Assembly: GCF_010119975.1 (NCBI RefSeq)
Contig: NZ_CP048222.1
Location: forward strand, 5,990,501 to 6,054,500
Origin: Rhodocytophaga rosea
GTDB taxonomy: Bacteria > Bacteroidota > Bacteroidia > Cytophagales > 172606-1
DNA: 64,000 bases
Direction of reading: 5' to 3'
The position numbers and the translations under genes were made by a program. This document shows, in pieces, positions 4,995-55,922 of this stretch (position 1 is its first letter; every line of letters begins with the position of its first letter). The notes beneath the pieces were generated by a model. The model saw nothing but the letters and a program-made list of their open reading frames with translations, was not told where the DNA came from and did no database searches.

Positions 4995-6923
4995 ATGAAA
5001 CCTATTTTTACTATAGCAACCTGTTTATTAACAGTTGCCCTCTTCTCCACTTGTCAGAAAGCAGGCAATGAAACCAAGGATCAACAAACAGCCGGCAATA
5101 CTGAAAGTGTGAAGCAGTACACCATTGAGCAGTTTATGAACACCAGCAATGCGTTTGGTAGCTCTTTTTCGCCTGATGAACAGAAGATTCTGTTTTCCAC
5201 CAATAAAACAGGAATTTATAATGGGTTTGAAGTAGCTGTAACAGGTGGTGAAGCGAAGGCACTTACTTCCTCTAAGGATAATTCGGTATTTGCTATTTCA
5301 TATTTCCCTTATGACGAACGCATCCTCTATTCGAGTGACAAGGGCGGCAATGAAATCAGCCATATTTATGTAAAGAATACCGATGGCACTATGCAGGATT
5401 TAACACCGGATTCTACAGCAAAATCAGAGTTTTTTGCCTGGAGCTTCGATGAGAAAAGCTTCTTTTATGTCTCAAACAAACGCGACCGCCGCTATTTTGA
5501 TCTGTATGAAATGGACATAGCAACATTTAAACCTGTCTTGGTTTATAAAAATGATAAAGGATATGATGTCAGAAATATATCTAATGATAAAGCCTACTTG
5601 TCGCTGGTAAAATCTTATACCACCAACAACACCGACATGTATTTGTATGATATCAAAAAGAAGCAGCAAACGCTGTTAAGTAAGCATACCGGAGATGTCA
5701 ATTTTTCTCCGGCTACTTTTAGTTCCGATAGCAAAAAACTGCTGTATTTGACAGATGAAAACAATGAGTTTGCCTACCTGAAATCTTATGAAATAGGCAC
5801 AGGTAAGGTAGAAGAGGTAGAGAAAGCCAGCTGGGATATTATGTATTCGTATTATTCCAGAAATGGCAAATACCGGGTGACTGCTATTAACAATGATGCC
5901 CGTACAGAAATTAAAATTTACGATGGAACTACCAGCCATCCTGTCGCATTGGCCCAGTTGCCGGCCGGAGATATTATGTCAGTGGATTTCTCAAAAAGCG
6001 AAAAACGTATGGCTTTTTACCTGAGAAGTGCTACCTCTCCTGGAAATCTGTATGTTTATGATTTCGATACAAAAAAAGCTACCAGACTGACAGATACTAT
6101 AAGTCCGGATATTGAGGAAGCAGACCTGGTAGCAGGAGAAGTAATCCGGTATAAATCGTTTGATGGCATGGAAATTCCGGCCATACTTTATAAATCTAAA
6201 GGCATCGAATCTGGTGAAAAGCGCCCGGCTTTACTCGAAATTCATGGCGGACCAGGCGGACAAACCAGAGTAAACTATGATCCGCTGATCCAGTACCTGG
6301 TCAATCATGGCTATGTGATTCTGGCTGTTAATAACCGGGGCAGTTCAGGATATGGGAAAACTTTTTTGGCGGCTGATGATCTGAAACATGGCGATGTGGA
6401 TTTGAAAGATTGTATCGAATCTAAGAAGTTTTTGAATGCCACCGGATATGTAGATTCTACCAAAATAGGCATTATGGGTGGTAGTTATGGGGGATATATG
6501 ACCCTGGCAGCACTAGCTTTTGCCCCGCAGGAATTTGAGGTAGGGGTAGATATTTTTGGGGTAGCCAACTGGCTGCGGACCTTAAATAGTATTCCTCCTT
6601 ACTGGGAATCTTTCCGGGAAGCCTTGTACAAAGAACTGGGAAATCCAAAAACGGATTCGGTCGCTTTGTACAATAAATCTCCTTTATTCCATGCCGGTAA
6701 AATCGTAAAACCGCTTATCGTATTGCAAGGTGCCAACGACCCAAGGGTACTGAAAGTAGAATCTGATGAAATGGTAGAAGCTGTAAAGAAAAATAATGTG
6801 CCAGTGGAGTATCTGGTGTTTCCGGATGAAGGCCATGGATTTGTAAAAAAGGAAAACGAAATTAAGGGATATAAAGCTATTCTCGATTTTGTAGATAAAC
6901 ATTTAATGAAAAAGGCAATATGA
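4995..6923 (+). CDS. S9 family serine peptidase (DPP/acylaminoacyl-peptidase type), lipoprotein
   Basis: A 642-residue exported peptidase. The N-terminus is a lipoprotein signal with a lipobox ending at Cys20 (ALFSTC), so the protein should be lipid-anchored. Residues of about 45-400 form a WD40-like beta-propeller (repeated FSPDE and YSSDKGG motifs), followed by the alpha/beta-hydrolase domain. The catalytic triad is visible: Ser497 in GGSYGG, Asp582 in GANDPRV and His614 in EGHGF. The oxyanion-region HGGPGGQ is also present. S9 enzymes release dipeptides or acyl-amino acids from short peptides entering the propeller. It is a single-gene unit divergent from the ABC exporter. Confidence 0.93.
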   Translation: MKPIFTIATCLLTVALFSTCQKAGNETKDQQTAGNTESVKQYTIEQFMNTSNAFGSSFSPDEQKILFSTNKTGIYNGFEVAVTGGEAKALTSSKDNSVFAISYFPYDERILYSSDKGGNEISHIYVKNTDGTMQDLTPDSTAKSEFFAWSFDEKSFFYVSNKRDRRYFDLYEMDIATFKPVLVYKNDKGYDVRNISNDKAYLSLVKSYTTNNTDMYLYDIKKKQQTLLSKHTGDVNFSPATFSSDSKKLLYLTDENNEFAYLKSYEIGTGKVEEVEKASWDIMYSYYSRNGKYRVTAINNDARTEIKIYDGTTSHPVALAQLPAGDIMSVDFSKSEKRMAFYLRSATSPGNLYVYDFDTKKATRLTDTISPDIEEADLVAGEVIRYKSFDGMEIPAILYKSKGIESGEKRPALLEIHGGPGGQTRVNYDPLIQYLVNHGYVILAVNNRGSSGYGKTFLAADDLKHGDVDLKDCIESKKFLNATGYVDSTKIGIMGGSYGGYMTLAALAFAPQEFEVGVDIFGVANWLRTLNSIPPYWESFREALYKELGNPKTDSVALYNKSPLFHAGKIVKPLIVLQGANDPRVLKVESDEMVEAVKKNNVPVEYLVFPDEGHGFVKKENEIKGYKAILDFVDKHLMKKAI

Positions 6924-7057
6924 AAAACCTAAGCGGATCGCCTTTTATCCATCGCAGGCCTTGTACTACAGATAGAAACCTTGGGCACTAACCTGCGTTC
7001 AAGATGAAAGCTTGTTAAAGCTACAATAGAAACCAGAGGACATACGTCTATAAATAT

Positions 7058-7077
7058 TAGATTCTGTATTGAATCTA
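7058..7077. promoter_or_regulatory. Palindrome upstream of the vWA/PP2C/kinase island
   Basis: A perfect inverted repeat TAGATTC-N6-GAATCTA sits 58 nt before the vWA start codon, where an operator or promoter element would be expected. It is the only clear dyad in the 212-nt upstream gap. The binding protein is unknown, and no regulator gene lies in the island. Confidence 0.4.
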
Positions 7078-7135
7078 TACATAATGCTACTTTTTAAACT
7101 AAAATACATCATCACTCAAACCACCATATAATACA

Positions 7136-7774
7136 ATGAGAAGACTACCAGTCTATTTATTACTCGATACTTCCGGTTCTATGACCGGCGAACCGATTGA
7201 AGCGGTTAAAAATGGCGTTCAGGTTATGATCAGTTCCTTGCGGCAGAATCCACAGGCCATCGAAACGGCATTTATCAGCATTATTACTTTCGATAGTGCC
7301 GCCAAACAAGTGGTGCCCTTAACAGACCTGGCATCCTTTCAGATGGTAGATATTAAAGCGAGCGGCACAACCAGTCTGGGAGAAGCTTTGCGGCTGGTAT
7401 CCACCTGTATCGACAATGAAGTGACCAAAACAACAGCCGAACAAAAAGGCGACTGGAAACCGCTGGTATTTATTATGACAGATGGTATTCCCACCGATGA
7501 CTGGCAAAGCGGCCTGGATGAGTTTAAAAAGCGCAAAACAGCCTATACCGTTGCCTGTGCGGCTGGTGGCTCTGCTGACGCTAATCTTTTAAAGCAGATT
7601 ACGGAAAATGTGGTCAGCCTGGATACAGCCGATAGTCAGAGCATCGCTAAGTTTTTTACCTGGGTTTCTGCTTCTATTGGCGTTACGTCTACCAAAGTGG
7701 AGGATGCCGGCACAGAAGTGACCGGCTTAAGCGAACTGCCGCCGCCACCCTCAGAATTGAATATTGTAACATAG
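7136..7774 (+). CDS. TerY-like von Willebrand factor A (vWA) domain protein
   Basis: A 212-residue cytosolic protein that is almost entirely one vWA domain. The metal-ion-dependent adhesion site is intact: D11-T-S13-G-S15, a Thr at 78/79 in SGTTSLGEAL, and Asp116 in IMTDGIPTDDW. TerY-type vWA proteins occur with a PP2C phosphatase and a kinase in the 'TerY-P triad' described in comparative-genomic work on Ter stress systems, and this gene is directly followed by exactly those two partners. The C-terminal tail is proline-rich (PPPPSE). The role is inferred to be a metal-dependent scaffold or phosphorylation target. An inverted repeat occupies the gap to the next gene. Confidence 0.85.
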   Translation: MRRLPVYLLLDTSGSMTGEPIEAVKNGVQVMISSLRQNPQAIETAFISIITFDSAAKQVVPLTDLASFQMVDIKASGTTSLGEALRLVSTCIDNEVTKTTAEQKGDWKPLVFIMTDGIPTDDWQSGLDEFKKRKTAYTVACAAGGSADANLLKQITENVVSLDTADSQSIAKFFTWVSASIGVTSTKVEDAGTEVTGLSELPPPPSELNIVT

Positions 7775-7783
7775 GGTTAATTT

Positions 7784-7843
7784 AGTGAGTGATTGGGTGA
7801 ATGAGTGACTGTGTGAATTATGTTTATCACCCAATCACTCATT
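7784..7843. repeat. Intergenic inverted repeat with GAGTGA/TCACTC core
   Basis: Perfect 14-bp arms at 7787-7800 and 7827-7840 (GAGTGATTGGGTGA and its complement), extended one or two pairs outward, enclose a 26-nt loop that itself holds further GAATGAGTGA-type copies. The element lies inside the presumed operon between the vWA and PP2C genes. A related element occurs at 55808-55922. It could be an mRNA hairpin or a dispersed palindromic repeat; there is no U-tract, so it is not a classic terminator. Confidence 0.6.
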
Positions 7844-7881
7844 CACTCAACGAACTACCGACTTAGTAAACTTCAGCCCAC

Positions 7882-9288
7882 ATGAGCGAGGTAAAAAAAC
7901 TGGTAACGCAACTTTTAAAAGATCATCATATGTCTGTGCCTCATCACCGGAAGGAGTTGTTTGACAAATTTATAAATGACGAAAAAACCATTGCCGCCGC
8001 CAATAATATACTTGAACAGCAGAAAGAGCTTATGGCTACCTGGAAACAGAAAGACAGAATTGCAGAAATTATCGGGCAACCGGTTCGCCTGTTAAATGCA
8101 ACGGTAGGTAAATCCTATGAGGCCAGAATAGATTTCAATAAACTGGGCTGGAAAGATATTACTGCTTTTCAATTGGATGGCCTGGAACCTGTAGGATTAA
8201 GATACGATGATACAACCAAACAGATTACTGGTGTACCAACCAAGAGCGGCGATATAAAATTTACGTTTAAATTTAAAGTAGAAGGCCAGCCGGAAGAATC
8301 TGCTTTTAATGAGAAGCCAATCACACTCATCATTAACCCAGACCCAAAAAGTTTGTGGAAAAACCTGGAAAGTGATGCAACCGATCCCTATTGGAAAGAA
8401 GATAATATAACCGAGTTTGCTCCCTTGGGCGACCGGCATGTTCTGGTTTCCTCCAAAAGAGGGCGTTCTCATGCTAATGTGGGTTCGTTTCGGGAAGATG
8501 ATTTTGCTTTCTCTAACCTGGAAAATGGCTGGAGTATAGTGGTAGTATCGGATGGAGCCGGAAGTGCCAAACTTTCCCGGAAAGGTTCTGCGATGGCTTG
8601 CCAGGGTGTGGTGGCGTATTTTAAAGAACCTGAATCGCTTGAAAGTATGAAGGGGTTTGATGAACTGCTGCAGCAACATGTGAACAGCAAAGGCGATGAC
8701 ACCCAAAAGAAACTCACCCGTTTGGTCTATACTAACCTGGGTAAAGCGGCTTTCAGGGTTCACAAGCAACTGGAATCCTTTGCTGCCAAAGAAGGATTTA
8801 CGCTAAAAGATTTAAGCAGCACGCTGATTTTTACCCTATTTAAGAAGTATGATACCGGGTATGCCTTTCTTTCCTTTGGGGTAGGCGATTGTCCGATGGC
8901 CGTGTTGAATAGGGATGTTTCGCAGGTTACTTTACTCAACTGGCTGGATGTAGGAGAATTTGGCGGAGGAACCAGGTTTATTACCATGCCCGAAATTTTC
9001 CGGAGTGATAAGTTTGCCACCAGATTTGGCTTTAAACTGCTGGAGGATTTTTCATATCTGATTCTCATGTCGGATGGTATTTACGATCCCAAGTTTGCTG
9101 TGGAGGCCAATCTGCCAAATATTAAAAAATGGCAGGAATTTCTCTCTGATCTTCAGGGAAAAAATGAGGATGGCATCCAAGTAGACCTAAGTATAAACAA
9201 CCCGGATATTAAGGAGCAGTTTTCGCAGTGGATGGATTTCTGGAGTCCTGGCAACCATGATGACCGGACACTGGCCATCGTTTTTTAA
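7882..9288 (+). CDS. PP2C-family (PPM) protein phosphatase with N-terminal Ig-like domain
   Basis: A 468-residue protein. Residues of about 1-60 are helical and charged. Residues of about 64-155 look like an Ig/cadherin-like beta-sandwich, with the ITGVPTKSGDIKFTFKFKV pattern seen in putative-Ig repeats. Residues of about 185-468 form a PP2C domain with the metal-binding aspartates in FREDDFAF, VVSDGAGSAK, FGVGDCP, LMSDGIYDP and the terminal HDDRTLAIVF. PP2C enzymes remove phosphate from Ser/Thr using two Mn/Mg ions; here it would reverse the kinase encoded 57 nt downstream. There is no signal peptide, so the Ig-like module is cytosolic, which is unusual. Function within the triad is inferred from gene order. 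Confidence 0.85.
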   Translation: MSEVKKLVTQLLKDHHMSVPHHRKELFDKFINDEKTIAAANNILEQQKELMATWKQKDRIAEIIGQPVRLLNATVGKSYEARIDFNKLGWKDITAFQLDGLEPVGLRYDDTTKQITGVPTKSGDIKFTFKFKVEGQPEESAFNEKPITLIINPDPKSLWKNLESDATDPYWKEDNITEFAPLGDRHVLVSSKRGRSHANVGSFREDDFAFSNLENGWSIVVVSDGAGSAKLSRKGSAMACQGVVAYFKEPESLESMKGFDELLQQHVNSKGDDTQKKLTRLVYTNLGKAAFRVHKQLESFAAKEGFTLKDLSSTLIFTLFKKYDTGYAFLSFGVGDCPMAVLNRDVSQVTLLNWLDVGEFGGGTRFITMPEIFRSDKFATRFGFKLLEDFSYLILMSDGIYDPKFAVEANLPNIKKWQEFLSDLQGKNEDGIQVDLSINNPDIKEQFSQWMDFWSPGNHDDRTLAIVF

Positions 9289-9345
9289 GATTATTCATCA
9301 AATAAATATTCATCAGTAATTAACCAAATTTCAATTAAGCCCGCA

Positions 9346-10851
9346 ATGATAAAGTCAGTAAGCTCCATAATTACTCCTGGTAAAACCTATCAGTATGTCG
9401 ACAATGGGGAACCGATGCGGGGTGGTATGAAAGATGTGTATTTTGGGCCAGATAAGTCGTATGTAGTGGCCTTTTACCGGGAGAAACAGGATTTCAATTC
9501 CAGGGAACGGTTGAAGAAACTAGTCACAACTTACTATGACAGCTTTTTTAACCGGGAGGGCGGCGATTATTTTAAAGAGCTGTATTGCTGGCCTACCGAT
9601 ATGGTAGAGGAAAATGGAAAAGTAGGGTTGATTGTGCCAGCGTATAACAAAAATTTTTTCTTCAAAAAAGGCTATGCCACCAGTGAGGGCATTAAAGGAA
9701 AAGAAAAACAAGGATTGTGGTTTGCTTCAGCCAAATTCCGTAATAAACAGTTTGCCCTGCGGCTGGATGAAAGTGAACTCGGAAACTGGCTCAGCTATTT
9801 TCAGATCTGTGTAAAAATAGCCCGGGGCGTAAAACGCTTACATGCCGCTGGCTTGGCTCATTCCGATCTTTCCTACAAAAATGTACTCGTTGACCCCGTT
9901 AGCCGCTCTGCCACCATTATTGATATTGACGGACTGGTGGTACCTGGTTTGTATCCGCCGGATGTAATTGGTACGGCCGACTTTATTGCGCCCGAAGTGT
10001 TAGCTACCAAACACTTACCTTTAAGAGATCCAAACCGCAAACATGCCAACCGCACCACCGACCTGCATGCCTTGCCAGTTATGATCTACCTATATCTGTT
10101 ATACCGGCATCCGTTGAAAGGTGGAAAAGTGCATTCGATGGATACAGAGGAGGACGATTTACTATCAATGGGGGAGAAGGCACTCTTTATCGAACATCCG
10201 ACCGATACGTCCAACCGGCCAAAACTGGATCAAGTTTCCAAATGGGCATTGCCCTGGGCAGATGTGACTAAACTACCATACACTATTACCGGTCCTTATC
10301 TGAAAGCATTGTTTGACGGGGCGTTTATTGCTGGCTTACATAATCCGAATCTGAGGCCCAATGCAGACCAGTGGGAACAGGCATTACTGAAAACAACCGA
10401 TCTGATGCAGCCTTGCAGCAATACCAACTGCGAACAGAAATGGTTTGTGTTTGATAATACCACTTCTCCCAAATGTCCGTTTTGCGGCACACCTGTAAAA
10501 GGCACCTTGCCGGTACTGGATTTATATTATCAGTTCAAGCCAACCGTTTGGAAGCCGGAAAATCACCGGCTGATGGTATACAATAACCAGTATTTGTTTC
10601 AATGGTATGTAAACCGGAATATAGTACGGAATGAAAAGCTTACTGACGAGCAGAAAGTACCGGTTGGCTATTTTGCTTTTCACCAGAGCAAATGGGTATT
10701 CGTGAATCAGAAGCTCACTTCGCTAAAAGACCTGACGGAAAATAAGGATGTGCCGGTGAATACGATGGTAGACATTACGGATGGCAAACGCCTGTTATTA
10801 TCTAATGAAGAAGGAGGAAGGGTGGTAATTGTGACCATGGCAAATAAATAG
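9346..10851 (+). CDS. Serine/threonine protein kinase with C-terminal zinc ribbon (TerY-P triad kinase)
   Basis: A 501-residue kinase. The N-lobe has a divergent glycine loop (RGGMKDVYF, residues 25-33) and a VVAFYRE strand where the usual VAIK lysine is not obvious. The catalytic loop H172-S-D174-L-S-Y-K-N179 is intact, as are the metal-binding DID-G at 193-196 and the IAPEVL segment. After about residue 355 there is a zinc ribbon with Cys357, 362, 377 and 380 (C-X4-C and C-X2-C), then a beta-rich C-terminal domain of about 100 residues that I cannot name. It has no membrane segment. Position after the vWA and PP2C genes marks it as the triad kinase; likely substrates are the vWA protein or downstream membrane proteins. 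Confidence 0.85.
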   Translation: MIKSVSSIITPGKTYQYVDNGEPMRGGMKDVYFGPDKSYVVAFYREKQDFNSRERLKKLVTTYYDSFFNREGGDYFKELYCWPTDMVEENGKVGLIVPAYNKNFFFKKGYATSEGIKGKEKQGLWFASAKFRNKQFALRLDESELGNWLSYFQICVKIARGVKRLHAAGLAHSDLSYKNVLVDPVSRSATIIDIDGLVVPGLYPPDVIGTADFIAPEVLATKHLPLRDPNRKHANRTTDLHALPVMIYLYLLYRHPLKGGKVHSMDTEEDDLLSMGEKALFIEHPTDTSNRPKLDQVSKWALPWADVTKLPYTITGPYLKALFDGAFIAGLHNPNLRPNADQWEQALLKTTDLMQPCSNTNCEQKWFVFDNTTSPKCPFCGTPVKGTLPVLDLYYQFKPTVWKPENHRLMVYNNQYLFQWYVNRNIVRNEKLTDEQKVPVGYFAFHQSKWVFVNQKLTSLKDLTENKDVPVNTMVDITDGKRLLLSNEEGGRVVIVTMANK

Positions 10852-10933
10852 AAGCTTCTGTGATCAAAACCGCAACAAAATAGAGCTATAAACCGATTTA
10901 ACTCATTGATAAACTATAAAACAAAATAAGAAT

Positions 10934-12001
10934 ATGAGACTCAAACCTGCAGGTATTATAATTGTTTTGCTGATCATAGGCGTGCTAGGATATTTTGCGC
11001 TTGCACCCAGGTTTTCTGGCTTGAAAGGAGAGAATACAACTGATACGGCTCCTACTACCGAAGTTCCTGAAAATGCGACTCCTCCCAATAACCCAGCCAG
11101 CCCCGATAAATCTACTGCTGACAATACTAAAACTGGTCCGGCAACTAGCTCCACTGATGCAGATGCGGAGGTACGCGAATTTAATTATACACCCGAAAAG
11201 CCGGAGAATGGAGCAATGCGTGGAGTAGTAGAAGTGGGAGCTACTGGTTTCAACTCTTTCGTGATCAATATGGACAATCAGAAGCGCTGGGAAATTGTAT
11301 CGAAAGATTTTGGTCAATCACTGGCCTACGAAGGTCTGGCTACCACCGAAGACATCCGGGCTGGTCTGAAAAAATACCTGGCCATGATGTTTGACAAAGG
11401 CGTACATAAAACCGATATGCACTTTGTCATTTCTTCTGGTGCACAAAAAGAACCTAAAACTGCCACTATTAGTAATGAATTGAAGAAAATGGGGTATGTG
11501 GTAAATAATGTAAATCCGGAACAGGAAGCTAAGTATGGATTTAACGCCACGGTACCGCCATCTTTTGCCGATAACTCTTTTATGGTAGACATTGGTTCTG
11601 GAAATACGAAAGTGTCCTGGGAAGAAAATGGCAGTTTAAAATCTATAGAACTACCGGGTGCCAAATATTATGAAAAAGGAACGTCTGATACAGAGGTGTA
11701 TAACCAGGTGAAAAGCCAGATGAACAAAGTACCAGAAAGCAAACGCAATGTAGGTTTTATTATCGGGGGAGTACCGTTTACCTTAGCGAATCAGCACCGC
11801 AAAGGAGAAGAACGGTATACCGTATTAAAAGCACCAGGAGCCTATACAGCCGCTGATAAAAAAATGGGCTCAGGTTTAAATATCTACAAAGCCATTGTAG
11901 ACGCTACCAATACCGATACTTTCGTATTCGACTGGGATGCCAACTTTACTATTGGTTTCTTACTAAATCTGAAAAAACAACCTTCTGCCGCCGCCTTATG
12001 A
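10934..12001 (+). CDS. Membrane-anchored ASKHA-fold (actin/Ppx-GppA-like) protein
   Basis: A 355-residue protein with one N-terminal transmembrane helix (residues of about 6-27), a Thr/Pro/Asn-rich linker (about 30-80), and a globular domain. The domain shows two ASKHA-like phosphate loops, VVEVGATGFNSF and FMVDIGSGNTKVSW, spaced as in actin/Hsp70/Ppx-GppA proteins. Between them lie FVISSGA and the PEQEAKYGF segment, which recalls the Ppx/GppA family. The C-terminal domain is therefore probably a nucleotide- or polyphosphate-binding fold. With the helix at the N-terminus it should face the periplasm if the positive-inside rule holds (R2, K4 before the helix). That would be odd for an ATPase. 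The stop overlaps the next start (ATGA). Similarity is motif-based only. Confidence 0.6.
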   Translation: MRLKPAGIIIVLLIIGVLGYFALAPRFSGLKGENTTDTAPTTEVPENATPPNNPASPDKSTADNTKTGPATSSTDADAEVREFNYTPEKPENGAMRGVVEVGATGFNSFVINMDNQKRWEIVSKDFGQSLAYEGLATTEDIRAGLKKYLAMMFDKGVHKTDMHFVISSGAQKEPKTATISNELKKMGYVVNNVNPEQEAKYGFNATVPPSFADNSFMVDIGSGNTKVSWEENGSLKSIELPGAKYYEKGTSDTEVYNQVKSQMNKVPESKRNVGFIIGGVPFTLANQHRKGEERYTVLKAPGAYTAADKKMGSGLNIYKAIVDATNTDTFVFDWDANFTIGFLLNLKKQPSAAAL

Positions 12002-12753
12002 GTTTTTTAAAGCAGCTATTAACGCCATTCATAGAGTTTGATGAAGACAAAAAAAAGGAGCAGCAACAGGGAAGCAAACCTTCTGCTGCTCCTATACAAC
12101 CACCTGTACCGCCTCCCATACCCAATACACCTCCGCCCATTGATGAAAATGCGCAGCATCCCTTAGTAACAGGAAAAGGCAGTACCACCACACCCAATCA
12201 ACCCCCTGCCGCTCAGATACCGACGTTTTCGCCCTCTGGTACTTTATCTGGGCCGTTACCAGAGCATGAAGAGTATTTTGAAAAACTGATCGAAGACCAC
12301 AACGCCAGAAATCCGCTTTTTCAGGGAACAGATTTTAAAGAATTTGTAGACAGCAAAGTAGATATTGATGACATACAGGATGAAGCCCTGAAATATCAAA
12401 CGGCTTATAATATTCTGAAAGGTTCAGGCCTTACCAAAGAAAAACTGCTTTCCACCGGACAGGAATATATGAACCTGATTGGCCGGGATCTGAATGCTTT
12501 TCAGAGCGCCCAGGCTTTGCAATATAAAAAAGAAGTAGGTCAGAAGGATCAACTCATTCAGAAAAAAGCCGAAGAATTGCAAGCTTTATCGCAGAAGATG
12601 AATGCGTTGAAAAGCGAAATCAATCAACTCTCTCAGGAAGTGAATCTTACCAAAGATAAACTCAATACCACCAAAAACTCTTTTCTATTAGCTGGAGAAA
12701 ACAAGCAGAAAGAAATTCAGACAGAATTGCAGAAAATTGCCAAATATTTTTAA
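11998..12753 (+). CDS. Proline-rich coiled-coil protein of the kinase island
   Basis: A 251-residue hydrophilic protein that I do not recognise. Residues of about 18-95 are rich in proline, threonine and glutamine (PPVPPPIPNTPPP), probably disordered. Residues of about 95-165 are a compact helical region (EYFEKLIEDHNARNPLF, KYQTAYNILKGSG). Residues of about 175-251 are a predicted coiled coil with heptad leucines (LQALSQKMNALKSEINQL). It starts inside the stop codon of the preceding ASKHA gene, implying translational coupling and equal dosage. There is no signal peptide or membrane helix. It may be an adaptor linking the kinase module to the membrane proteins. Confidence 0.7.
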   Translation: MSFLKQLLTPFIEFDEDKKKEQQQGSKPSAAPIQPPVPPPIPNTPPPIDENAQHPLVTGKGSTTTPNQPPAAQIPTFSPSGTLSGPLPEHEEYFEKLIEDHNARNPLFQGTDFKEFVDSKVDIDDIQDEALKYQTAYNILKGSGLTKEKLLSTGQEYMNLIGRDLNAFQSAQALQYKKEVGQKDQLIQKKAEELQALSQKMNALKSEINQLSQEVNLTKDKLNTTKNSFLLAGENKQKEIQTELQKIAKYF

Positions 12754-12839
12754 AATGCTTACGGTTTGAAGTTCCGTTTTTATAGATTCAAACTCTATTT
12801 GGTAAATATTGCCCCAATACAAATAGTAGTTGAAATCTT

Positions 12840-13616
12840 ATGAGAGGAATTTTACGAAGCTTTTTCCTGATTATTAATTATAAAACCTTACTGGTTACTG
12901 CCCTGGCTGTACTCTCTAGTTATCTTTGCTTTAAATATGGACTAACAGCCAAGTTTCCGGATATGCTGGTAGGGGTTGCCATAGTTTTTCCAGTGGTGTT
13001 CTCTATTGGTTCTGCCTACAACCGCCGGGAATTGGCACTTCAGCGGTTTTCCGATTTTAAAGGGAATGCCATTGCCGTCTATTATGCTTCCCGTGACTGG
13101 ACGTCTGACAAAAATAATGACCTGCCGCAGCGCATCCGGGTATTAGTGGGCGAAATGGTGGTAATTATGAGAGATATGTTTAAAACACATCATCATGGTA
13201 ACTGGCAGGAAAATGAAAGAAAATTGTATGCCTGTTTTTCCGCTTTATCCCAGTTAACCATGGAAATGCGGAAGTTTGGGGTGCAAAGTGGAGAAATCTC
13301 CCGCGTAAGTCAGTATGTAAACCGAATGATCATCGCTTTTGATAATATCAAGATTATTCATGCTTACCGGACTCCCATCACCCTGCGGGCATACAGCAAA
13401 GTGTTTATCTACATTTTTCCTATTATATACGGACCCTATTTTGCCAGTACCTTCCGGGAATATTCGGCTAATTTAGAATATGTAATGCCTATTCTTTACA
13501 GCTTTATTCTGGTGAGCCTGGATAACATACGGGATCATCTGGAGCATCCTTTCGACGATGTGGGCGAAGATGATATCCGCTTCGATGAATCTGATATTGT
13601 AGCACACATGCATTAG
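12840..13616 (+). CDS. Polytopic membrane protein, bestrophin-like (uncertain)
   Basis: A 258-residue protein with about four hydrophobic segments: two near the N-terminus (LLVTALAVLSSYLCF and LVGVAIVFPVVFSIG) and two near the C-terminus (VFIYIFPIIYGPYFA and VMPILYSFILVSL). Between them is a long cytosolic stretch beginning SAYNRRELALQRF and containing YYASRDW. The arrangement and the YRTPITLRAYSKVF segment resemble bestrophin-type anion channels, but identity is low and the call is tentative. It is the last gene of the co-directional island, 86 nt after the coiled-coil gene, so it could be the effector of the phospho-relay. A short 7-bp dyad at 13615-13637 covers the convergent gene ends. 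Confidence 0.55.
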   Translation: MRGILRSFFLIINYKTLLVTALAVLSSYLCFKYGLTAKFPDMLVGVAIVFPVVFSIGSAYNRRELALQRFSDFKGNAIAVYYASRDWTSDKNNDLPQRIRVLVGEMVVIMRDMFKTHHHGNWQENERKLYACFSALSQLTMEMRKFGVQSGEISRVSQYVNRMIIAFDNIKIIHAYRTPITLRAYSKVFIYIFPIIYGPYFASTFREYSANLEYVMPILYSFILVSLDNIRDHLEHPFDDVGEDDIRFDESDIVAHMH

Positions 13617-13623
13617 CAGATTT

Positions 13624-14064
13624 TTATTGGATCTGCTCAGGTTTGAGCCCAATAGAAGCTTGTCCATTATCCGGATTAAACGGTACGGAACTATGTGCAT
13701 GAGTGATCTTCCATTTGCCGTTCAACTTCGCATAACAGGTTGTTTCCCTCCACCACATATTGAGTTTGTTCCCATTAGTATTGACAGCATCAATATGATT
13801 CATACTGGTACAATAGGCGATAGTTTCGGAGACATGAATCCCAATATTTCTGATCTCAAAATTTTTAATTTCAGCCAATGTAGAGAGCCATTCTTGTAAA
13901 CGTTTTTTCACGGCATTTTTCCCATGATGTTCCAATGGATCAATAATGTCAAAGAGTATCACATCATTACTGTAATCCTGGGTAGCCATATCAATGTCTT
14001 TAGCTTTAACACCCTTCACCCGGTTGTTGATAATATCCCGAATGCTGGCTTTTTCAGTATCCAT
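13624..14064 (-). CDS. NTF2-like (SnoaL/DUF4440-type) protein
   Basis: A 146-residue soluble protein of the NTF2-like cone fold: helix-rich start (IRDIINNRVKGVKAKDIDMATQDYS), then VILFDIIDPLEHHGKNAVKKRLQEWL, and a beta-sheet end with MWWRETTCYAKLNGKWKITHAHSSVPF. This order and the terminal GKWKITHAHSS motif are typical of SnoaL-like domains used as small-ligand binding or isomerase folds. No substrate can be assigned. It is convergent with the membrane protein of the kinase island (7 nt between stop codons) and stands alone, with 57 nt to the next minus-strand gene. Confidence 0.8.
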   Translation of the reverse strand: MDTEKASIRDIINNRVKGVKAKDIDMATQDYSNDVILFDIIDPLEHHGKNAVKKRLQEWLSTLAEIKNFEIRNIGIHVSETIAYCTSMNHIDAVNTNGNKLNMWWRETTCYAKLNGKWKITHAHSSVPFNPDNGQASIGLKPEQIQ

Positions 14065-14121
14065 ATTTCCTCTTCTGTTAACTGTATTAATCTATTGCTA
14101 ATTACTAGAAACTGTTGAATA

Positions 14122-15666
14122 TCAGAACAGTTTCCCCCGTTCCATATGAATTTTTAATTCTGGTTTATATTGTCCTATGGCTTCTACTACTTCCTTGGAA
14201 ACAGATGTTTCATTGACATATACATCTTCCAGGGCTGGGAACTGTAAAATATGCAGAATCTGTCCATCATTGATTGCTGTGGAAGATAGGTCTAAAATTT
14301 TCAAGTTTTGTAAAGTTGAAAGATGCACCAGTCCTGTCCCCTTAATCTGCGTTTGCTGCAAGTATAACTCCTGTAGATTCGCCATCTGGCCAATATGATA
14401 GAGGGCATCATCGGTAATATTACTGGCTATAAAAGAGGCTTTGGTAATGCTCCCAAACAGTGGTTGAAGGGTAGGTAAATCATTATCTTCGAAAGCCGAA
14501 GGCGGAAAAGGCATAGAAAGCGTAATGGCTTTTTCTTCATAGGGATCAATCCGGAGTACATATTTATCATCCTTTTGAGAAACGGTTTGTATGAGTTTTT
14601 CCAGCCCCTGTTGCTGCAAAACTCTGGCTTGCTGCTGTGCTTCAATTTCTGCCAGGTAAGTTGTTAGGAAAGAGGCAACCTTTACATCTTTGGAGGCTTC
14701 CTGTACTTTTAAGGTAGTATCCGCTCCTTTGTCTATCCACCAGGATAGTAGGGTGATTTCCTCTTTGGTGAGCGAAATTTTTCCTTTGGGCGGCATCCGG
14801 TCATCATCATCTTCAGGCAGCATAAGCCGCTTGTAGAGTTCGCTATCCGCAGCCGAGCCTGGTTTCAGCGTCGGATGTTCGCTTTTTCCACCTTTCAGCA
14901 TCTCCTGGTAGGAAGTCATGATCAGGTCGCCTTTGGCTTTGTTTTCATTGTGACAGCTCATGCATTTTCTATCCAGAACCGGCTTAAGCATGTCTTCGTA
15001 CACCAGCATTTGCTCGACAGGCTTGGGTTGCCAGTTGTCTTTTGTTTTGATCAAAGTGGGCATGTATTCAGTTAAATATTCACTCCCATGTGTTAAAGAT
15101 CCTCCCTGATGACTGGTAAATACAAGTATAAAATTGGCCAGAACAAGCGAAGAGAGATAATAGGCATAGCTTACTTTAGAAGTGGAGTGTGAATAGCTCA
15201 AAAACAAGTACAGGGCTATGGCTGAAAAAGAAGTTAATAATACACCTCCCCACATATGCTGATCCATGGTAGTACCTATATACTCGCCTGTATAATACAG
15301 CATAAATCCCAACCCTACCGAAACCAGGCTGCTTACAAAACTTATTCCCAGTAGTATCCCAATAGTAGAAGAAGAAATAGTCCACAAACGAAATTTTCTG
15401 GCTAACTCAAAAACTAAAGCTATCCCTATCAATACTACCGGAAAATGAACCAGTAGCGGATGAAAGCGGCCAAAGAAATAGATAATACCAGGAGCCGTAG
15501 CTTTAGAAGGGGGAAGTAATGGCAAAAAGAGACCAGCAACAGCAAGTACTAAAAACAGAAAGCGGTACTGTATAATTGATTTTTTTAAGGAGTGAAACCA
15601 GGGATGTATGTGTTGCATTAAGGAATTTAAATATGTTACTAAAATGGTTGGATAAAGGACAACCAT
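14122..15666 (-). CDS. DUF2231 membrane / c-type cytochrome / leucine-rich repeat fusion protein
   Basis: A 514-residue fusion. The N-terminal third has about five transmembrane helices with a GRFHPLLVHFPVVLIG segment typical of DUF2231. A planctomycete-type cytochrome C domain follows, with a single haem site CMSCH (about residue 238), DRMPPKGK and a C-terminal TLLSWWIDKGAD. The last 110 residues contain leucine-rich repeats (LQELYLQQTQIKGTGLVHL, LKILDLSSTAI). A start at MQHIHPWF 16 codons downstream is also possible. The cytochrome domain should be periplasmic. It lies upstream of the DUF1552/DUF1592 pair on the same strand and shares the haem-domain type, so a common role in redox-linked processing of an unknown substrate is inferred. 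Confidence 0.82.
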   Translation of the reverse strand: MVVLYPTILVTYLNSLMQHIHPWFHSLKKSIIQYRFLFLVLAVAGLFLPLLPPSKATAPGIIYFFGRFHPLLVHFPVVLIGIALVFELARKFRLWTISSSTIGILLGISFVSSLVSVGLGFMLYYTGEYIGTTMDQHMWGGVLLTSFSAIALYLFLSYSHSTSKVSYAYYLSSLVLANFILVFTSHQGGSLTHGSEYLTEYMPTLIKTKDNWQPKPVEQMLVYEDMLKPVLDRKCMSCHNENKAKGDLIMTSYQEMLKGGKSEHPTLKPGSAADSELYKRLMLPEDDDDRMPPKGKISLTKEEITLLSWWIDKGADTTLKVQEASKDVKVASFLTTYLAEIEAQQQARVLQQQGLEKLIQTVSQKDDKYVLRIDPYEEKAITLSMPFPPSAFEDNDLPTLQPLFGSITKASFIASNITDDALYHIGQMANLQELYLQQTQIKGTGLVHLSTLQNLKILDLSSTAINDGQILHILQFPALEDVYVNETSVSKEVVEAIGQYKPELKIHMERGKLF

Positions 15667-55778: not shown

Positions 55779-55807
55779 AGCTTTGCGTTGGTTAAATGGG
55801 TGAATGA

Positions 55808-55922
55808 GCGAATGAGTGACTGAGTGAAAGATTACAATTTTTGTTCTACAGATTGAAGGGTCTGCCATTACCTTTAATATATACGTAGATCCAATCTCTC
55901 ATCTACTCAATCACTCATTCGC
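55808..55922. repeat. Intergenic inverted repeat with GAATGAGTGA core
   Basis: Arms GCGAATGAGTGACTGAGT (55808-55825) and ACTCAATCACTCATTCGC (55905-55922) pair over 18 bp with one G-U. The core is shared with the element at 7784-7843. It spans the 5' leader of the APP1-like gene. Confidence 0.6.

Follow-up and report, generated by a model that had tools for sequence, protein, structure and literature searches.

A five-gene locus of Rhodocytophaga rosea joins a TerY-P triad to a predicted periplasmic Ppx/GppA-like protein and a coiled-coil partner

To our knowledge, the targets of TerY-P triads, in which a vWA protein, a PP2C phosphatase and a protein kinase are encoded side by side, have not been established, though such triads occur in many bacteria. 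A locus in the Bacteroidota species Rhodocytophaga rosea raises the question of which proteins such a triad may act with. The locus lies in a stretch of 64,000 nucleotides (nt) analysed here as a whole and called the window (NCBI RefSeq assembly GCF_010119975.1, contig NZ_CP048222.1, positions 5,990,501 to 6,054,500); coordinates below are window positions, and the host genome is a single 8.98-Mb contig. The initial annotation described six genes on one strand as a signalling island: the triad, a membrane-anchored ASKHA-fold protein, a translationally coupled coiled-coil protein and a polytopic membrane protein. All six open reading frames (ORFs), here named A to F, lie on the + strand between 7136 and 13616, as described. 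The first five probably form a real unit, an envelope signalling system, since related bacteria carry the same set.

Gene A (7136-7774, + strand, as are all that follow) encodes a stand-alone TerY/YegL-like vWA protein of 212 amino acids (aa) with an intact metal ion-dependent adhesion site (MIDAS; Pfam VWA, 8e-15). Gene B (7882-9288) encodes a 468-aa PP2C phosphatase (Pfam PP2C_2, 3e-29) in which an N-terminal extension precedes the phosphatase domain at residues 193-420, and gene C (9346-10851) a 501-aa protein kinase (Pfam Pkinase, 1e-9) with a C-terminal zinc ribbon. These are followed by D (10934-12001), a predicted periplasmic Ppx/GppA-like ASKHA protein of 355 aa with an N-terminal signal anchor, and E (11998-12753), a 251-aa coiled-coil protein with a Pro-rich, low-confidence N-terminal third, a small helical domain and a long helix. 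The D and E genes overlap by 4 bp, sharing the ATGA, which bears out their proposed translational coupling. Hydropathy analysis gives D a single transmembrane segment (residues 6-24) and A, B, C and E none.

Conservation of five genes, not six

Relatives of D were collected by scanning species genomes with a profile of D (alignment A3, 13 rows). A relative is encoded in 450 stretches, and the best 80, ranked by likeness to the D protein of the window, were kept; 80 D genes from 79 of these loci were classified, the D gene of L117 having been dropped by the ORF picker. Genes A-B-C-D-E occur in the same order and on the same strand in 23 of the best 80 loci, which fall in three orders of Bacteroidota and belong to Rhodocytophaga, Rufibacter, Hymenobacter, Telluribacter, Segetibacter, Flavisolibacter, Cnuella, Ilyomonas, Desertivirga and two less precisely named metagenome-assembled genomes. 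Best-segment identity to the window across these 23 loci is highest for A (91-94%) and C (81-91%), followed by D (67-79%), B (58-74%) and E (51-76%).

B lies between A and C in the window and in all 23 loci, and E directly follows D in each of the 23 in which D follows C, at a distance of -4 to 11 nt in 22 of them (the -80 nt of L097 comes from an upstream start picked by the script). The distance from C to D is below 100 nt in 20 of the 23, the exceptions being L081 (220 nt), L119 (189 nt) and L082 (1860 nt, where an extra ORF intervenes). Among the named genomes found, that of Rhodocytophaga aerolata is the closest, with 83% identity over four joined cassette proteins. Within the family, D is present in all eight genomes and kinase C in two, both of the genus Rhodocytophaga and both with D and E after C; a third family match to C (9e-5) covers residues 156-256 only. 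More widely, a D protein search matched 3 of 198 genomes in the class sample, the genome's own included, and relatives of D at E values below 1e-90 were found in 8 of 395 sampled genomes of the phylum.

The sixth gene behaves differently. F (12840-13616) encodes a membrane protein with a weak resemblance to bestrophins (a Bestrophin_2 match of 13.1 bits, below the cut-off of 27), and no match to it was found in any of the best 80 D loci. In R. aerolata, F is on one contig (C110) and D and C are on another (C147). As judged from these neighbourhoods, F is therefore not part of the conserved unit, and the proposed six-gene island is rejected in favour of a five-gene one: the expectation that the same six genes would co-occur beyond chance held for A to E and failed for F. 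F may still be co-transcribed with A-E in R. rosea, since the scan showed no terminator-like site in the E-F gap.

In a tree of the joined A-D proteins, Desertivirga, a member of the Sphingobacteriales, groups with Telluribacter and another row from the Cytophagales. The grouping of the Cytophagales copies as one clade is rejected by an approximately unbiased (AU) test (p 2.5e-50, from a quick tree in which one long branch was flagged); the test was run after an earlier tree had been seen, on a group defined by taxonomy. The cassette has probably moved between orders, the alternative being old copies followed by losses. The five-gene version, ordered across three orders, supplies D and E as candidate partners of the triad and thereby makes the question of its targets testable.

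The triad and its relatives

The proteins A, B and C have the features by which TerY-P triads are recognised, namely a TerY-like vWA protein with an intact MIDAS, an adjacent PP2C phosphatase and a kinase with a C-terminal zinc ribbon, and by sequence they are classed as such a triad, as the initial annotation had recognised. Across all 24 rows (the window and the 23 loci), the MIDAS residues of A (D11, S13, S15, T78 and D116) do not vary, nor do the zinc-ribbon cysteines of C (C357, C362, C377 and C380, in a CxxxxC...CPFC arrangement) across the six kinases compared. The ribbon spans residues 357-380, and the last 120 residues of the kinase have no assigned fold. Accounts of TerY-P triads are given in PMC11090510 (citing Anantharaman et al. 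2012) and PMC4978471, and kinase genes with PP2C and vWA neighbours are mentioned in PMC7159879.

The three proteins also align over their domains with the YegL, PphC (YegK) and YegI proteins of Escherichia coli. A is 30% identical to YegL (E 5e-21), and B matches PphC by BLASTP (E 6e-4) and by hhalign (probability 90.6), although PphC, with its 253 aa, has no counterpart to the N-terminal extension of B. C is colinear with YegI through the ribbon at the level of profiles only (hhalign probability 90.2; E 0.49 by BLASTP alone). In PMC13232886, PphC is described as dephosphorylating YegI, a membrane-bound kinase; this enzymatic pairing counts in favour of the envelope phospho-relay proposed below for the R. 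rosea locus. C differs from YegI in having no predicted transmembrane segment. In E. coli K-12 the yegI-pphC-yegL triad is adjoined, on the opposite strand, by yegD, which encodes a protein of the HSP70 family (L160:675-6129). That triads of distant phyla have two different ASKHA proteins as neighbours may reflect chance or convergence.

Ter genes are common, though not universal, beside TerY-P triads. None was found adjacent to the triad in the window, no search having been aimed at TelA; a search of the whole genome gave no match to TerD, and the three copies of TerC all lie outside the window. The reported absence of TerC and TerD from the window was thus confirmed. A TerB_C profile search of the genome gave no match and is uninformative, its control profiles having been silent as well.

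Loci collected through D cannot reveal triads that lack it, and the triad was also approached from the kinase. A search with C in the 395 phylum genomes (own included) gave 11 matches at E <= 1e-20, consisting of the window and ten others at 59-72% identity. Seven sister-triad neighbourhoods were fetched (L171-L177) and four were read. In L172 and L174, three vWA genes, a PP2C gene and the kinase gene are followed by TerC; in L177, two TerD genes, two vWA genes, PP2C and kinase are followed by a P-type cation ATPase; and in L176, three vWA genes, PP2C and kinase are followed by a Na/Ca exchanger. The kinase identity and the presence of TerC or TerD beside three of the four triads read point to common descent with the triads of Ter operons. 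The gene 3' of the kinase varies, and in all four it encodes a membrane protein, a transporter. The R. rosea triad differs from these in having one short vWA gene rather than two or three, and in being followed by the predicted exported Ppx/GppA-like D and the coiled-coil E.

Among the 11 kinase-found triads, only that of the window has an adjacent match to D. In two of the other ten genomes (G491 and G522) the D match lies at a distance or on a separate contig; the remaining eight are not among the 56 D-positive genomes. The D-E partnership therefore marks the closer branch of the kinase (81-91% identity) rather than every relative of the triad. This bears in both directions on the possibility, raised in the initial annotation as a refutation, that the downstream genes are absent beside the triad in related genomes: D and E are present in both family genomes with the kinase and in the 23 loci, and no D match adjoins the ten more distant triads.

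Proteins D and E, with and without the triad

On its AlphaFold2 model, D is a divergent Ppx/GppA-fold protein. The window copy has only a sub-threshold Pfam Ppx-GppA match, while the copy in L015 falls just above the cut-off. The model (mean predicted local distance difference test score, pLDDT, 77) begins with an anchor helix, which a low-confidence linker (residues 28-78) connects to an ASKHA domain, and the first Foldseek match of the model is the Aquifex Ppx/GppA structure 1t6d (E 4.2e-14, TM-score 0.52/0.61). Ranks 1-31 are all Ppx/GppA enzymes, with NTPDases, which are secreted enzymes, from rank 32, and identity to the structural matches is 12-17%. The earlier description of D as a membrane-anchored ASKHA-fold protein is thereby upheld. 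Two ordinary Ppx/GppA genes are present elsewhere in the genome.

In 78 of the 80 D genes, the charges flanking the anchor speak for a C-terminus on the outside (L103 was scored on a doubtful start), so that the ASKHA domain is predicted to face the periplasm. No lipobox was found by pattern in those 80 D genes; lipobox-like leaders were judged by eye in four D relatives (L003, L018, L056 and L057). In L018, the lipoprotein-like D adjoins a WGR-domain/beta-propeller protein (L018:1288-3787). Pairs of neighbouring D copies occur in L159 (9001-11190) and in G491 (C7:65451-72011).

D shares the catalytic Glu and the motif-2 Asp of the Ppx/GppA family. The Glu altered in a PPX E114A chain aligns with E198 of D, by way of L181, a Ppx/GppA protein of the same genome; E198 is invariant in 81 of 81 rows and lies outside the scan patterns, DIGSGNTK and E[LMV]GA[ST]GFNS, which make the conservation of their own motifs in the 80 loci partly a matter of construction. 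The motif-2 Asp, D219, is also invariant. D differs from the family in its anchor and linker of about 50 residues, in its sub-cut-off Pfam score in the window and in two of its motifs. In motif 1, Asp is replaced by Glu and the usual SN/TN is missing, and K226 takes the place of the motif-2 Glu (GGGSxE), a metal ligand in Ppx/GppA enzymes. The count of Lys226 in 81 of 81 rows is biased by the pattern DIGSGNTK; Lys also occupies this position in L003 and throughout the 13 rows of A3, all of which come from whole-protein or profile searches. The 450 stretches point to a branch of Ppx/GppA-fold proteins that is predicted to face outward, where such a domain is unexpected.

E gives only weak coiled-coil-type profile matches, and a comparison with solved structures returned coiled coils and chance-level matches only. 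Its model (mean pLDDT 74, predicted TM-score 0.45) contains a helical domain at residues 88-141 followed by a 100-residue helix, and E is predicted to face the cytoplasm. Near their N-termini, E and two relatives each have an amphipathic stretch of 13 residues (moments 0.46, 0.45 and 0.34, against 0.13 for one control peptide). E can be aligned with E-like proteins from loci that lack the triad, the most distant at 18-25% identity.

Such loci are the majority. In 51 of the 80 D genes there is no triad, and an E-like gene and a gene for a membrane coiled-coil protein, here called P, lie directly upstream of D; 23 of the remaining D genes follow the kinase and 6 show neither arrangement. No matches to A, B or C were found in the flanks of loci outside the 23. 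The D-E pair is taken to be an older module, commoner without the triad than with it. P has two predicted transmembrane segments in 47 of 52 proteins and one in the other 5. The envelope-like context is most extensive in L015, where E, P, D, an OmpA-domain protein with a leader nearly identical to that of D, an ABC permease (sub-threshold in Pfam) and an ABC ATPase (by inspection) follow one another on one strand (L015:5135-11808), with ORF sizes nearly the same in L016. It is possible that this row represents a complete envelope system without a kinase.

The triad-less D-E module with its membrane coiled-coil P resembles the phage shock protein (PSP, PspA) envelope systems treated in PMC11237479, and 16 of the 80 loci, from Sphingobacterium, add SPFH/Band-7 and zinc-ribbon genes beside D. 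P falls below the PspA_IM30 cut-off of 33.9 bits, however, with 15.8 bits in L099 and no match up to E 1 in three other P proteins, and its identity with PspA was not established; the words vWA, TerY and ASKHA are absent from the main text of PMC11237479. In one such Sphingobacterium locus (L122:9916-12193), the zinc-ribbon gene and the SPFH/Band-7 gene follow E-P-D on the opposite strand, each belonging to a cluster found in 16 of the 80 loci.

A putative envelope phospho-relay and its alternatives

It is possible that A-E constitute an envelope phospho-relay, in which a cytoplasmic phospho-switch is coupled through E to D, a periplasmic sensor or enzyme, during envelope stress; we hold this account tentatively, at somewhat short of an even chance. 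The sequences show the order, conservation and domains of the five genes, from which the mechanism is inferred. The ASKHA domain of D would bind, and perhaps slowly hydrolyse, a phosphate-rich ligand such as polyphosphate, a nucleotide or a lipid pyrophosphate in the periplasm, and E, at the inner membrane face, would bridge the D anchor and the triad. Kinase C would phosphorylate E, most likely in its linker containing Pro, Ser and Thr, and the PP2C phosphatase B would reset this phosphorylation, with A holding the complex together through its MIDAS metal site as a metal-dependent scaffold. The outcome would be altered stability of the membrane or envelope under stress. D and E probably serve the same envelope task without the triad where they lie beside P.

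A bolder proposal, and an unlikely one, is that D founds a receptor class outside the cytoplasm that is new, as a periplasmic sensor with the Ppx/GppA fold for polyphosphate, alarmone-like nucleotides or lipid pyrophosphates that is read through E by a eukaryotic-type kinase/phosphatase/vWA switch. If this were true, it would be a transmembrane kinase system with a former phosphohydrolase as its sensor domain, and many other Bacteroidota would use the sensor without the kinase. No title on the five-gene unit or on an exported Ppx/GppA-like protein appeared among those that the literature searches listed; subscription papers lay mostly outside these searches, and a prior mention is possible.

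D might instead be no sensor but an active periplasmic phosphohydrolase for polyphosphate or nucleotides, through which the switch gives its output. The fold, the NTPDase structures among its matches and the invariant catalytic Glu and motif-2 Asp would fit such an enzyme, whereas the Lys in place of the motif-2 Glu, the altered motif 1 and the predicted placement of the kinase and the D domain on opposite faces of the membrane make it unlikely. About as unlikely is a module for metal or ion homeostasis as proposed for Ter systems, in which the triad would sense metal through the MIDAS and zinc ribbon and control the envelope module instead of TerC or a cation pump. Next to the sister triads, in the four neighbourhoods read, lie TerC, TerD, a Na/Ca exchanger or a P-type cation ATPase, and a metal-sensing hypothesis is quoted in PMC11090510, but the R. 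rosea genome has no TerD match and no transporter was recognised among A-E by Pfam.

A role in anti-phage defence, like that of the TerY-P-like modules described by Gao et al. 2020, is improbable. Those modules and the CoCoNuT-associated triads contain the same three enzyme classes, and the modules with an OB-fold kinase are stated to protect against phage in PMC11090510. Those systems have that OB-fold kinase, or nuclease and helicase genes; the kinase here carries a zinc ribbon, its last 120 residues being without an assigned fold, and lies beside D and E, and no nuclease was recognised in A-E by Pfam. PADLOC matches kinase C to PD-T4-6 (2.9e-5), mad6 and MkoA, weak matches that would be expected for other kinases too; neither A nor B gives any PADLOC match up to E 1. 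Of ten neighbours in the window, only an ABC transporter is matched by PADLOC at 1e-5 (mad3/mad8), and among 77 neighbours of the 23 loci, eight PADLOC models match one protein each at 1e-8. These 77, out of 78 listed (one long protein, L098:1-4761, was omitted), comprise up to two script-picked ORFs of at least 150 aa per side, some of which are perhaps not genes; the first 25 of their 98 Pfam families include integrase-core (3) and transposase (2) matches. A defence island, as had been suggested for this locus, accordingly finds no PADLOC support among the near neighbours of the window and the 23 loci. The suggestion of a membrane sensor or stress relay remains a fair one, its defence branch being unsupported, and envelope stress is preferred over defence mainly because the D-E module without the triad has an envelope-like context. 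Least probable is that D-E and the triad are carried by one mobile stretch and have no joint function. Each half does occur without the other, and the cassette tree departs from the orders, but the direct succession of E after D in the 23 loci and the C-to-D distance below 100 nt in 20 of them argue against mere co-travel.

Several observations weigh against the envelope phospho-relay itself. Since ten kinase-found triads lack an adjacent D and 51 of the 80 D genes lack a triad, neither half needs the other everywhere. D, whose single anchor is preceded by about five residues, has little to show the kinase, and the model of E is without a helix up to residue 54, contrary to an N-terminal membrane helix. 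D may be either the input or the output of the signalling.

The gap between A and B also bears on the relay. It contains an inverted repeat at 7793-7850 (+ strand; arms 7793-7816 and 7827-7850), a possible attenuator, and the region 7772-7882 folds at -39.9 kcal/mol (z -5.8). The A-B gaps of Hymenobacter and Rufibacter are hairpin-rich as well (z -2.0 or lower in seven of eight loci, from mononucleotide shuffles); they differ from that of the window, and some are followed by T-rich stretches (L083-L087). With such hairpins between A and B, the vWA protein may be made separately or in excess, and a single A-E transcript is left unproved. No match to a Bacteroidota-type promoter consensus was found in 6800-14200, with 2 in the 64 kb against 3.35 expected, and sigma-70-like and terminator-like sites at the locus are not above shuffles. 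A TCACTCA-rich sequence related to the A-B hairpin, with 3 mismatches, is present elsewhere in the window at 55805-55827.

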